Part shown: one piece after another, positions 1,801 through 7,937 of the stretch | Position numbering within the stretch: the first letter of the stretch is position 1 | Layout of the letters: every line of letters starts with the position of its first letter | Assembly: GCA_016281495.1 (NCBI GenBank) | Contig: JAEEIU010000049.1 | Location: 1-64,000, forward strand | From: Treponema sp. | GTDB taxonomy: Bacteria; Spirochaetota; Spirochaetia; Treponematales; Treponemataceae | DNA length: 64,000 nucleotides | Direction of reading: 5' to 3' | Program-made: the position numbers and the translations under genes | The notes under the pieces: generated by a model | Databases searched by the model: none | Told to the model about the DNA's origin: nothing | Seen by the model: the letters and a program-made list of their open reading frames with translations, nothing else

Positions 1801-3293
1801 ATATTGATGTCCCTCTTCTGGCTTTTTAAAAGTCTCTGCATTGCAAATTTACCGCTGGCAACTGCAACAGGAAGTCCTCCAGGCGACATTGTCCACTGAC
1901 CTGCAAGATAGAGATTGTCTATGCCCTTTACCCTTCCCTTGAGCCTGAGCTGCTTTGCCTCTGGTGTCGTGATAAAGCTCATGTAACTTCCGTGATAAGC
2001 ATTGCAATATCTTTCGTAAGTAAGTGGAGTCCAGCAATCCAAGAATTCAATTGATTCCTCCAATTCCGGGAAACGTGAGATTATGCGTTTTTGAATTTCC
2101 AGGACCAATTCTTCCTTTACTTTTTTGTATTCATCCTTGGACAAACTTTTCCAATAATCAAAATCGCTGTCCGTCTGAGTGATGCAAGTTTGAATCACCT
2201 GTTTCCCATCATGGACAAACAAAGGATCGTATCCATAATATTTTATGTACATGCGGTCAAAAGTATGATTTCCAATTTTAAGCTCATCGATGTCAACAAA
2301 AACAGTTTCATTTGCCACAAATGATTTGTCAACTGCAAATGCAATCTGGAAGCCACTTGTCACAGGATATTTTCTTGGTGAACTGTAAGCCGCACGAAGT
2401 TCTTTCGGCATGTATTTTTGTGGAAGAAGCTTGTTGAACAGTGGATATGAATCAATTGCAGGAATAACATAATCGGCAGGAACAAACTCACCACCTTCAA
2501 GAGTAATTCCGCTTGCGTGCTTTTTTTCAAGAACGATTTTTTCAACTCCGGTATTATAGAAAATCTGGCCTCCCAGTTCCTTGAATCTTTTCTCCATGCG
2601 CAATGACATTTGAAGCGAGGCTCCCATCGGGACATTTCCGTTCCCAATCACAACAGTTGCATAGGAAACCAGGAACGAATAGGCCGTGTATTCCTTTGGA
2701 AGATAATCGCAAATCATTTTTTGGAGCAACGGAGATTTATATCTTTTGCTGTATTCCTCAAGTGATATCTTTCCAAACTCCTTCATGACCTTTGGCATGT
2801 CCATCATGTTCTTTCCCATTGAAATATAATCCTTTATACCCCACATTTCCATCGGTTTACTGATAGGGAAAAAACATTGCTTTGAGTATTCAACATGCTG
2901 AATGAATTTTCTTATTTCCGCCTCATCTTCCGGTGATGCCTGGATAAGTTCCTCCTCTGTCCTTTTAAGGTCATTCCACAGAGTTACGCTTTTGCCCCTG
3001 TATGTTGAAGTATAAAATGAATCGATTTTTGCATATTCAGTTTCATCGCTCAGGGCACCAACGGTTTTCCACACATCATAAAGTTCGGTTCCTTTCTTTG
3101 TTCCAGTAAGCCAGTGGATGCAGTTGTCAATGTGAAAGCCCTTTCTGTTCCACCCAATGCACTCACCGCCGGGAATGGCATTTTTCTCATAAATGGCCGC
3201 ATCAAATCCTGAGCGCAGAGCATAAATGCCGGCAGACAACCCCGCAATCCCTCCGCCAACAATCACTACCTTCTGCTTTCCTGTGTTTCCCAT
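1797..3293 (-). CDS. FAD/NAD(P)-dependent oxidoreductase, phytoene desaturase-like
   Basis: 498 residues. The N-terminal Rossmann dinucleotide-binding motif is VGGGIAGLSAG followed by IYEKN. The C-terminal FAD motif is NLYLAGQW with GGLPVAVASG. This places it in the amine oxidase/phytoene desaturase (CrtI/carotenoid isomerase-like) superfamily. The substrate is unknown, and no other carotenoid gene is nearby. The frame can be extended to 3308, but GGAGG eight bases before the ATG at 3293 fixes that start. It is the first gene of an operon with the TetR regulator, which presumably responds to the substrate or product. Confidence 0.85.
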   Translation of the reverse strand: MGNTGKQKVVIVGGGIAGLSAGIYALRSGFDAAIYEKNAIPGGECIGWNRKGFHIDNCIHWLTGTKKGTELYDVWKTVGALSDETEYAKIDSFYTSTYRGKSVTLWNDLKRTEEELIQASPEDEAEIRKFIQHVEYSKQCFFPISKPMEMWGIKDYISMGKNMMDMPKVMKEFGKISLEEYSKRYKSPLLQKMICDYLPKEYTAYSFLVSYATVVIGNGNVPMGASLQMSLRMEKRFKELGGQIFYNTGVEKIVLEKKHASGITLEGGEFVPADYVIPAIDSYPLFNKLLPQKYMPKELRAAYSSPRKYPVTSGFQIAFAVDKSFVANETVFVDIDELKIGNHTFDRMYIKYYGYDPLFVHDGKQVIQTCITQTDSDFDYWKSLSKDEYKKVKEELVLEIQKRIISRFPELEESIEFLDCWTPLTYERYCNAYHGSYMSFITTPEAKQLRLKGRVKGIDNLYLAGQWTMSPGGLPVAVASGKFAMQRLLKSQKRDINI

Positions 3294-3331
3294 ACAAATC
3301 CTCCGCATGCATTCAATTTGAATTGTTATTC

Positions 3332-3399
3332 ATTGAATCTATATTCAATATAAATCATCTTTTTGGATTTGTCAAGCATTTGTTGAATTTATATTCAAC
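3332..3399. promoter_or_regulatory. Twin inverted-repeat operators, probably for the TetR regulator
   Basis: Two near-identical inverted repeats, ATTGAAT-CTAT-ATTCAAT (3332-3349) and GTTGAAT-TTAT-ATTCAAC (3382-3399), have centres exactly 50 bp apart. One overlaps the -10 box and the other lies just upstream of the -35 box. A third, shorter palindrome ATTCAATTTGAAT is at 3311-3323. The geometry suits repression by a TetR dimer bound at both sites. The link to the neighbouring TetR gene is inferred. Confidence 0.7.
3347..3375 (-). promoter_or_regulatory. Sigma70-type promoter of the oxidoreductase/tetR operon
   Basis: On the minus strand TTGACA (3375-3370), a 17-base spacer, then TATATT (3352-3347) form a near-consensus promoter reading toward the start at 3293. 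The -10 box runs into the inverted repeat at 3332-3349. Confidence 0.75.
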
Positions 3400-3406
3400 G
3401 AAAAAC

Positions 3407-3433
3407 GTCATTTCGGGCTTGACCAGGAATCCC
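3407..3433. repeat. Degenerate dispersed palindrome
   Basis: A member of the same repeat family (gtcatttcgggcttgacc, then aggaatcc) with a broken right arm, so its stem is imperfect. It lies between the TetR operators and the next gene. Confidence 0.5.
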
Positions 3434-3512
3434 AACTTTTTCCAAACAATCTCCCTCTATAAACTTCTGGCAAAATAAGCTATACTTTTTCCATTAACTT
3501 TAGGGGATTTTT

Positions 3513-4355
3513 ATGATTAAAAACAGATTCGTTTCCTTTGTCGTGATAATCGCGGTTTATGTGCTTGCATTTTTTGGGGGTCTTTTCTGCTATAATTATC
3601 TTTCGTCACTCTGCAAATTTTCATACTTGATTTCACTTCTTCTTGCAGATGTTGCGGCCACGGTGATTGTCTTTATCTTCAGCTTGATTTTTCATAACGC
3701 ATCTGTATATGATCCGTATTGGAGCGTGCAGCCCCCGGTGATTCTTGCCGTTGCATTGTTCAAATGCGGTGGAACACGATTAGGCTATTGCCTTTTTGCT
3801 GCGGTTCTCTTTTGGGCGCTCAGGCTCACGGCAAACTGGGCGTATAATTTCAAGAGTTTTGAGTATCAGGACTGGCGTTATGTCATGCTCAAGGAAAAGT
3901 CAAAAAAGCTATACCCCCTGATTAATTTCGTGGGCATTCATCTTTTTCCGACTATTGTGGTTTTCCTCTGCATCCTGCCGGCTGTCTCTGCCATACATGA
4001 TCAGATTCCGTTTAATCCCCTCGCCCTGATTTTTATCGCATTGAGTTTTGCCTCAGCAATCTTTCAGGGAATCGCGGACATTCAGATGCACAAATTCAGG
4101 AAACTTGGTACCGGTGGATTCATACGCACAGGCCTATGGAAAAGATCACGGCATCCTAATTATGCCTGTGAAATCCTAATGTGGTGGGGAATCGGTCTTG
4201 CCTCAATCTTTGGAATGCCGGAAAGGTGGTGGCTTCTTGCCGGTGCCCTACTGAACACCCTGATGTTCCTTTTCATAAGCATCCCCATGGCGGAAAAACG
4301 CCAGTCCCAAAAACCCGGATTTGAAGAATATAAAAAAAAGACGCGGATGTTATAG
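3513..4355 (+). CDS. DUF1295 / steroid 5-alpha-reductase-like membrane protein
   Basis: 280 residues with about seven hydrophobic segments. Near the C-terminus are GLWKRSRHPNYACEILMWWG and the WW-rich stretch typical of DUF1295, which is related to steroid 5-alpha-reductases and isoprenylcysteine methyltransferases. Distant relatives reduce or methylate lipid substrates; no activity can be assigned here. AGGGGA precedes the start ATG. It is convergent with the GNAT-like gene and their 3' ends overlap by six bases (4350-4355). Confidence 0.8.
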   Translation: MIKNRFVSFVVIIAVYVLAFFGGLFCYNYLSSLCKFSYLISLLLADVAATVIVFIFSLIFHNASVYDPYWSVQPPVILAVALFKCGGTRLGYCLFAAVLFWALRLTANWAYNFKSFEYQDWRYVMLKEKSKKLYPLINFVGIHLFPTIVVFLCILPAVSAIHDQIPFNPLALIFIALSFASAIFQGIADIQMHKFRKLGTGGFIRTGLWKRSRHPNYACEILMWWGIGLASIFGMPERWWLLAGALLNTLMFLFISIPMAEKRQSQKPGFEEYKKKTRML

Positions 4356-4925
4356 TATTTGGTACATAAAAATGCAATCTTCATCATATTTTGGTTTCAC
4401 ATGGGCATGAACGAATCTCTCTTCTTCTTTTTCTAGACGTGTAAAACCTAGTTTTTCATAATATGAAATTAATTTGTCTTCCGGTAATGCATAAATATAT
4501 AGAGCTTTGACTGCAACAAAATTTTGGATATGCTTCACAGTAGGTAAAATAAAACTCCTAAATATTATTTCTCCAATTTGTTTTAACTCTGGATGGCTTG
4601 CCCTATAAAGAGCATTTACAGCAAAATTTGACAGTTCAACTGCTGGAATCGTATCAAAATAACCTTCAAAATCAGGAGTTTCTACAGTAAATAGTCCTGT
4701 CCTTACCGAGAAATAACCAACAATCTCTTTCGTTTTTTTATCTTTTACAAGGTATGTTGAATTCAATTGATTTTCTTCATCAAATACTGCTGTTTGTTTT
4801 AAATATAATTCCAACCCATAACCACTTCGCTCTCTTATCGCAAAGTTATTTATTTGTTCACTATTTTTTTTATCATCAAATAAATGCTCATAAAAGAACA
4901 GCTTATGCTCGATTTCCAAAATCAT
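4350..4925 (-). CDS. GNAT-fold acetyltransferase-like protein
   Basis: 191 residues. Strand-like segments TYLVKD, IVGYFSVR and PAVELSNFAVN are followed by a helix and then YIYALPEDKLISYYEKLGF, which is the usual GNAT C-terminal Y-x-x-x-GF signature. The acetyl-CoA pyrophosphate loop (LKQIGEII) departs from the usual Q/R-x-x-G-x-G/A. The gene overlaps the upstream 64-residue gene by four bases (ATGA). That layout matches GNAT toxin/antitoxin pairs, but the small partner is not an obvious ribbon-helix-helix antitoxin. A housekeeping or drug-modifying acetyltransferase is an alternative. Confidence 0.6.
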   Translation of the reverse strand: MILEIEHKLFFYEHLFDDKKNSEQINNFAIRERSGYGLELYLKQTAVFDEENQLNSTYLVKDKKTKEIVGYFSVRTGLFTVETPDFEGYFDTIPAVELSNFAVNALYRASHPELKQIGEIIFRSFILPTVKHIQNFVAVKALYIYALPEDKLISYYEKLGFTRLEKEEERFVHAHVKPKYDEDCIFMYQIL

Positions 4926-5248: not shown

Positions 5249-7032
5249 TTAAGGTAATCTTCGTGGTCTAAAATATAGATCTGCCGTTTTTCCATGACCA
5301 TTGGAAATCGTTATTTTCTTATTAGCCAGATCTTCTACAATAGTCCAGTTCATATTTTCCTCTGCAATAATCTCTTCATCATCCCTTGGATTCATAGTAA
5401 AGGATGTAAAATCATCATTAAATAACACTCTACCATTAACCCTATTGTGGTTGTCATACCAACTAAAATATCCCTTTTTGTATCCCAAAACTTCACTGTC
5501 TCGTACCTCATAATCTAATGAATAAGATCCATTAGAAGTATTTCTCCAACCATCTTCAGTATCAAAATTTTGTTCATACCAATGCTTTTCTGGTAACCAT
5601 GGGGTTTCGGCAGAAAAAGACATATTGTTTTGCCATTGTTCATTTGAAGCTAGTGTTTCACCATCAGGATTAAATCTTGGATTAAAATCCACAGTATATT
5701 CATATGTCTTTGTTTTGAAATCATAATTGGTATATACCATTATCTCTTTTTTATTCTTTTGGAAGTATTTATCGATAACCTCAGAATCTGTTGCTGACTG
5801 CGAAAGCCCATAGTTTTTTCGCCACTGTTCAATCATCTTTTTTACATAGTTCCGTACTGCCGCCTTTTTAACTTCTTCTGATTGTGATGCCACAGTATCG
5901 TATGTTACTCCTTCTGGGAAACAACCTTCATAATAAAAGTGGCTATAAGCTTGTTCTTCTGTGGCATCTTCAGCTAGGCAGTAATTCTCTATTGTTGGAT
6001 TTGAAACTAAAGTTCTAAGATTATTACAGTATTCTGTGAGGTCCTGTAAATAGTAGTCTTGTAATTCCTCTTTTGTATACCATGTATCATATACGAAATA
6101 CTTTGTCATGGTCACAGTAATAGTTTTAGCTACGGTGTCAGCCGTATAGGAATACATTTCTCCATCCTGTTCGGTTCCATAATGCTCATCTTCCCAATCG
6201 ATTATTATTTTCATAATATTTCCATCAAAGATATAGGAATATCTCTTTGTTCGATTATATTGAGTATTATCGGTATAATAAGTATCTGTTTCTGTAAAGA
6301 TAAACTCCGGAATATGTGTCAGAGTAAACGGTACTGTTGTTTCATAACTTTCCCCATCGTAGCTAAGGGTTGCTTTTAGAGAAAGGGGAATGTCCGCTAT
6401 GTCTCTGATTACGCTCATGGTATTACCAGAAAGAGTAAGGTGACTGTCTGTTGAAACTGTATCCCAACTGACATCAACGTTTTTATCTTCCACTGTTACG
6501 GACGTCTGCAAGTTTACATTCTGCCATCCGTAAGTTGCTCCATCATAAGTAATGGAAAGTTTGGCAGCAGCGGCTTCAAGTATTTCCTGTTTTGAAAGTT
6601 CTGCATTCTCCTGATAAACTGTCATCGCAAAAGATTTTGTTGTTGTCTCACCGTTATACGAAAGGGTCGCCGTTAAATTTACTGTGTCTGATCCATCGCC
6701 ATCTTGATGTATAACTATTGCATTGCAAGAATTGGTGTTTTGACTTATCGTGATAATGGAAGAATTGTCGGATGACCATGTAATTGTTACGTCTTCAAAT
6801 CCACTTATAGAAATTGGCAGGCTGATTGTATCCTGTCCTTGTGTCACTACTGTTTGAATTGTCAGGTCTGATTTTGCATTTTCCAGAGTTTGGGTCTCTG
6901 CACTGGATTGTTGTCCGCCAGATTCACTTGTGGAACCTGATTCTGTTGGTACGTTACTTGGGCAGGCTACAAAAAGAAGTGTTGCCAGTAACACCCCCCC
7001 CACTGTACAAAATTATAGGCTTTTCGTTGCAT
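5249..7032 (-). CDS. Ig-like-domain lipoprotein, out of frame at a G8 tract (probably phase variable)
   Basis: The body of the gene (5249-7003) is intact and encodes 584 residues. It includes two repeats of an atrophied bacterial Ig-like domain (about residues 45-130 and 140-230; core ITWSSDNSSII and VSWDTVSTDSHL, each ending in LSYNGE/LSYDGE-type strands) and a C-terminal region of unknown fold. The ATG with an AAGGAG site at 7039-7044 is at 7032, but it is one base out of frame and stops after about 20 codons. The shift lies in a run of eight G (6994-7001) inside the signal-peptide codons. Nine G would give MQRKAYNFVQWGG joined to VLLATLLFVAC, a perfect lipoprotein signal. The only in-frame start as written is a GTG at 7003 without a ribosome site. 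Either the gene is switched off here or one base is missing. A -10 box TATAAT lies at 7064-7069. Confidence 0.8.
6994..7001 (-). repeat. Homopolymeric G8 tract (candidate phase-variation switch)
   Basis: Eight consecutive G on the coding strand, located between the start codon and the lipobox of the lipoprotein gene. It is the longest G/C homopolymer I noticed in the window. Slippage by +1 restores the full frame. Confidence 0.75.
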
Positions 7033-7132
7033 AAAATCTCCTTGAACAGGGCTCTCCCATTCAATTATAGTCTACCATTGTTCCAAACAAAAAACAAGGA
7101 TTCAACAAAAATTCACAGGCTATAACTCCCCC

Positions 7133-7161
7133 TTGTCAAAAATCGTCTGATTGATTATAGT
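7133..7161 (+). promoter_or_regulatory. Promoter of the HAD phosphatase gene, apparently leaderless
   Basis: TTGTCA (7133-7138), a 17-base spacer, then TATAGT (7156-7161). Only five bases separate the -10 box from the ATG at 7167, so transcription should begin at or next to the start codon. No Shine-Dalgarno sequence is present. Confidence 0.6.
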
Positions 7162-7166
7162 TGATT

Positions 7167-7937
7167 ATGGAAAACATATCTTTAATTCTTTCTGACTTAG
7201 ACGGCACTCTCTTTCATGATGACAAATCAATTTCAGATTACACTAAGCAGGTGATTGCGGCGGCCCAGAAAAAAGGGATTCTTTTTGGCATTTCAACTTC
7301 CAGAGCATTAATCAACGCCTCTCGCTATTTGAACGGACTAACGCCAGATGTCATGATTACAAATGGAGGAGGTTTGGTTTATTGCAAGGAAGAAAAAATC
7401 TATTCCTGTGAGTTTACAAAAGAAGAGGCACGCACGCTCATAGACGCGGCCTTTAAGTTTGGTGGCAAGGATTTTATAATCAGCGTGGACAATGAGAACG
7501 GCCTTTACTGCAACTCAAAAGAAGATTTGGGAGACCGTTACTGGACACCCACGGATTTTTCTGATTTTAACGAGCCTGCCATGAAAATGTGTGTTGAAAC
7601 TTTGGACAAGAAGCTTGTAGAAAAAATAGCATCCAGCATTGGAATAGACAAAATCGATTTCCTCCCCTTCTCCGACATTCCCTGGTACAAGATGAGCAAA
7701 AAGAATGCAACCAAAGAAAAGGCCATCGAAAAACTTTCACAACATCTGAATCTTCCAGTTGAAAATATCGCGGCTTTCGGAGATGACTTTAGCGACATAG
7801 GCATGCTTAAAATCTGCGGCAGGGGAATCGCCATGGAAAATGCAATTGATGAAGTAAAATCCATAGCGGATGGAATCTGTCCTTCCAACGAAGATGATGG
7901 TGTTGCAAGGTGGATGGAAAATCAATTTGAACTCTAA
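7167..7937 (+). CDS. HAD-superfamily Cof-type phosphatase
   Basis: 256 residues. Motif I is SDLDGTLFHDD with Asp10 as nucleophile and Asp12 as acid/base. Motif II threonine or serine lies near GISTSRA. Motif IV is GDDFSDIGML near residue 205. The length and the C2-type cap place it in the Cof/YidA group, which dephosphorylates sugar phosphates or other small phosphate esters in the cytosol. The ATG at 7167 is preferred over an in-frame TTG at 7161 because the latter lies inside the predicted -10 box. The substrate is unknown. Confidence 0.85.
   Translation: MENISLILSDLDGTLFHDDKSISDYTKQVIAAAQKKGILFGISTSRALINASRYLNGLTPDVMITNGGGLVYCKEEKIYSCEFTKEEARTLIDAAFKFGGKDFIISVDNENGLYCNSKEDLGDRYWTPTDFSDFNEPAMKMCVETLDKKLVEKIASSIGIDKIDFLPFSDIPWYKMSKKNATKEKAIEKLSQHLNLPVENIAAFGDDFSDIGMLKICGRGIAMENAIDEVKSIADGICPSNEDDGVARWMENQFEL

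Follow-up and report, generated by a model that had tools for sequence, protein, structure and literature searches.

The window, the 64,000-nucleotide stretch of Treponema DNA analysed here, contains a lipoprotein gene whose start codon and coding sequence lie in different frames, which raises the question of whether the run of eight G between them is a switch, a fixed lesion or a reading error. In minus-strand order, a TATAAT block (7064-7069), assigned by consensus as a candidate -10 element, is followed by an AAGGAG ribosome-binding site (7038-7043), an ATG (7030-7032), a further nine codons, the G8 tract (6994-7001), a hydrophobic stretch with a lipobox, and an open frame down to position 5249. 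Within the signal peptide, the tract separates the N-terminal codons from the hydrophobic core. The long frame (5249-7003, minus strand), with 584 codons including the stop, covers the mature lipoprotein and is shifted by one base relative to the ATG, from which translation in the present state gives a 21-residue product ending at TAG (6967-7032). Read in the long frame, the signal peptide ends with the lipobox codons Phe-Val-Ala-Cys (6962-6973), and the protein carries an aBig_2 domain (PF20578, atrophied bacterial Ig; 6611-6880) with a Pfam score of 39.8 bits against a cut-off of 27. The initial annotation had described an intact frame one base out from the start with the G8 run as its sole break, and both points hold; its ATG at 7032 is confirmed, and its ribosome site, given as 7039-7044, lies one base away.

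No other damage was found in the 584 codons, nor a later start with a ribosome site. The locus therefore combines a homopolymer able to switch the frame by a change in length with an intact coding sequence beyond it. The charged n-region, hydrophobic core and lipobox cysteine of a lipoprotein signal are all present in the in-frame ortholog of a sister species, G009 (MQRKAFNFVQWGGMLLATLLLVAC), and are split across the frame break in the window gene. The tract lies downstream of the ATG, and there is no poly-G between -35 and -10 of this gene. A fold assignment was attempted with AlphaFold2 from the single sequence; owing to a mean pLDDT of 36, it was dropped and no fold is claimed for the protein. 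The divergent neighbour of the lipoprotein gene encodes a HAD-type hydrolase (7161-7937, plus strand), and a similar HAD gene (L086) is found in G009 beside a TTGACA-G9 promoter at a contig end.

Apart from this G8 run, the window has no run of seven or more G or C. The run is not rare in itself, because dinucleotide shuffles of the window contain on average 0.91 G8 runs. As a run it is ordinary, whereas its placement at the 5' end of an exported gene is unusual, as revealed by the stretches around tracts in the source genome (3.2 Mb, 61 contigs), where all 13 G or C runs of at least eight were read. Five of them (the window gene, L018, L020, L021 and L023) fall in N-terminal codons of exported proteins, compared to none of 23 interrupted control runs (GGGGHGGGG), which are equally G-rich and not slippery (P = 0.003). 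Two further runs occupy the promoter or ribosome site of exported genes: at L017 a G10 separates TTGACA from TACAGT ahead of the gene for an outer-membrane-barrel-like protein, and at L024 a G8 takes the position of the ribosome site of a lipoprotein gene. With these added, the comparison is 7/13 against 1/23 (P = 0.001). The 13 runs of exactly seven are mostly inside ordinary genes, none at an exported 5' end, and the 13 longer runs exceed the number expected from a geometric fall-off (Poisson P = 4e-5). Six runs with no clear tie to an exported gene (L014, L015, L016, L019, L022 and L025) were not counted as switches.

The five coding tracts of this genome are in mixed states: the window gene, L020 and L023 are out of frame, while L018 and L021 are in frame. 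At L023 (G000:C51, ~3117-3155), the out-of-frame leader ends at a TGATG that overlaps the ATG of a perfect lipoprotein signal (MRNLITILLLALAFLFSSC), an arrangement that could provide default expression by coupled restart. Directly upstream of the L024 lipoprotein gene (G000:C53) is a 458-codon ORF (3002-4375, plus strand) whose N-terminal part, MTEEELLTVNGG, resembles a double-glycine leader, with weak EF-hand matches. Profile searches gave three matches to FlaA (PF04620), which marks a spirochete, and no match anywhere to MOSP_C, an uninformative result; the organism is probably a gut- or rumen-type Treponema.

Across about 200 congeneric genomes, two tract designs recur. The first places the tract among the signal-peptide codons, immediately ahead of the hydrophobic core; in the second, the tract makes up the spacer that separates TTGAC from a TATAAT-like box in the promoter. 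Counted on one strand, the start-tract pattern occurs at 120 sites and its reversal at 24, the promoter pattern at 157 and its reversal at 15, so that the controls are 5 to 10 times rarer. Among 76 coding loci of the first design in roughly 30 genomes, many of them found by the class-defining pattern search and hence not a random sample, the start frame agrees with the long frame in 27 (36%) and not in 49, close to the 33% expected if tract length is free. Tractless genes treated by the same procedure are in frame in 128 cases and out in 19 (87% in frame; P = 6e-15 relative to the tract loci). Nearly all loci of this design are lipoproteins, often in paralogous sets, such as more than ten 'SCENFLNGAEIK' genes in G005, a 'CSNGSDSGG' set in G066 (a single 2.8-Mb contig) and a 'CSGGTSYVG' set in G114, G116 and G117. 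For the promoter-spacer sites with a downstream gene, the next gene encodes an exported protein in 28 of 32.

Several further loci were observed in the course of this survey. Two neighbouring genes in G005:C9 (L116 and L117) share a near-identical tract-bearing 5' end and differ in their continuations, one having a second G11 run; this arrangement points to recombination between paralogous lipoprotein genes. A G9 run between two glycosyltransferase-like genes (G018:C29, L104, ~5254-5262) possibly marks a phase-variable sugar-transfer locus. The pattern search was also extended order-wide beyond the genus, where it was uninterpretable, the reversed control often equalling the pattern in one family. 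In another family of the order, runs of 20-30 G close to the ends of contigs (G257:C95, G253:C26 and G329:C12) are probably sequencing artefacts.

Among the 200 congeneric genomes, a close ortholog of the window gene is found only in G009. It is in frame and 80% identical, with an identical ribosome site and conserved start, start flanks and TATAAT block, while the DNA farther upstream is unrelated. In place of G8 it has GGGGAGGGA, an interrupted, non-slippery tract, and no tract is present in the more distant homologues, which are lipoproteins with ordinary signal peptides. The dN/dS between the window gene and this ortholog is 0.37 over 581 codons, which argues against old decay. Taken together, the in-frame ortholog, the dN/dS value and the tractless distant homologues indicate a gene under constraint in which the uninterrupted tract is a feature of this lineage, by gain here or loss in the sister. 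The search for homologues proposed in the initial annotation accordingly returned a tract that is interrupted in one relative and absent from the others, in a gene that is not decayed elsewhere.

These comparisons also provide the case for a young pseudogene, in which the tract would have arisen by drift in this lineage and a single slip would have broken the frame for good: the sister gene is in frame with an interrupted tract, and the distant homologues do without one. The 584 otherwise undamaged codons and the dN/dS of 0.37 speak against such a fixed frameshift, although a recent break would look alike. The same design also occurs in mixed states at four other loci of this genome and across the genus, and we regard a fixed frameshift as unlikely. 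Reversible switching, which we favor, is itself weakened at this locus by the same lack of tract conservation in G009 and the distant homologues, and by the tract length, eight G being few for a slippery tract.

Tract length differs in 19 of 24 homologous pairs with flanks at least 70% identical. As the sole close ortholog of the window gene has an interrupted tract, tract conservation is seen in the class but not at this locus. The clearest length change is seen in a secreted GH5 cellulase with poly-G in its signal-peptide codons: the gene of the source genome (L018, G000:C23, ORF 2221-4332, minus strand) has eight G and is in frame, while that of G009 (L079, G009:C2) has nine and is out of frame, with flanks 100% and 98% identical. 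In G009 the signal peptide is followed by a stretch of N, which limits the comparison of frames to the part before it; past this stretch the cellulase domain is intact. In an orthologous promoter of two species, the runs are of 9 and 13 (L162 and L160). These pairs bear on the notion that the homopolymer was miscounted in sequencing or assembly and that the true gene is in frame. G runs are difficult to read and the window gene is known from one genome; yet run lengths of 8, 9 and 10 are all resolved within this assembly, some in frame and some out of frame, and random errors would neither cluster at the 5' ends of exported genes nor make close homologous loci differ in length across many assemblies. 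A miscount is therefore very improbable. Least probable of all is expression of the gene in its present form, through slippage in transcription or frameshifting by the ribosome, both of which slippery runs can cause, or by downstream restart as the TGATG overlap at L023 might allow, because the window gene has no ribosome site ahead of a later start and because frameshifting as a rule would fix tract length modulo three, when all classes occur at the coding loci.

We thus consider it quite probable that the window gene is a simple-sequence contingency locus switched by slipped-strand mispairing at its G tract. Slippage in living cells, within a clone, would alter the length of the tract and thereby join or part the frame of the start codon and that of the lipoprotein, so that individual cells would stochastically make or omit an Ig-like protein presumably exposed at the surface. 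The assembled genome would represent the off state. The role could be, for example, to vary adhesion or the targets of phages or antibodies in the host gut. Slipped-strand phase variation is strongly supported by the comparative data for the tract class and likely for the window gene. The phase variation proposed in the initial annotation has gained support beyond the case that could be made from this one sequence, since dozens of lipoprotein genes in the genus share this tract design, with roughly two out-of-frame loci for every one in frame.

On a wider scale, we lean towards a genus-wide phasome in gut-type treponemes, in which whole paralogous lipoprotein families, some outer-membrane proteins and even a secreted GH5 cellulase would each be under their own poly-G tract, located in signal-peptide codons or in the spacer of the promoter. 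The surface of these commensals would then vary combinatorially, and production of a shared digestive enzyme would be subject to bet-hedging. Most of the large phase-variable repertoires known to be driven by repeats come from pathogens, and a review asks whether this reflects database bias (PMC11868660). Among the complete treponeme genomes compared in a 2021 study, the lowest number of homopolymeric tracts was reported for T. ruminis, a commensal of the rumen, and tracts were linked to pathogens (PMC8049484). The tracts described here are few and sited at lipoprotein and outer-membrane genes, and counts alone therefore overlook them. A literature search, with partial coverage of subscription papers, returned no account of a lipoprotein tract repertoire in gut-type treponemes. 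Should this be confirmed, lipoprotein genes of this kind now annotated as 'pseudogenes' would prove switchable, and the states selected in each host could be measured from metagenome reads.

The mechanism itself is already known, from T. pallidum promoters and Neisseria opa. Within T. pallidum isolates, the length of poly-G tracts varies and modulates promoters and transcription, and at tp0126 the tract lies between -35 and -10, a 17-base spacing being best (PMC7864442). The T. pallidum loci (tp0126, tprE/G/J and tprL) share with those described here a spirochete poly-G of about 7-11 at surface-protein genes, and the tp0126 promoter design is that of L017, L094, L107, L110 and L111. They differ in being transcriptional switches of outer-membrane proteins in a pathogen; the T. 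pallidum precedent cited in the initial annotation is apt for the mechanism but not for the position, as the best-studied tracts (tpr genes and tp0126) are in promoters and that of the window gene is in signal-peptide codons. The G tract of Neisseria pilC sits in signal-peptide codons, as in the window gene. This genic tract (9-20 G) also switches by on/off frameshifts (PMC5953494), although pilC is found in one or two genes per genome, in contrast to the lipoprotein families here, and encodes an unrelated protein: the window protein has no PilC/PilY1 Pfam domain, and the likeness is only in how the switch works. Neisseria opa likewise has a repeat in leader-peptide codons and several family members that switch independently (PMC3960869), but the repeat is the pentamer CTCTT and the products are beta-barrel adhesins. 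In the gut commensal Bifidobacterium breve, replication slippage at an intragenic G tract of a pilus locus was measured directly (PMC9187656). We infer from sequence that a G tract within a gene slips in the same way here, in what is probably also a gut organism, the B. breve system differing in its Gram-positive sortase pili and in having a few loci per genome.
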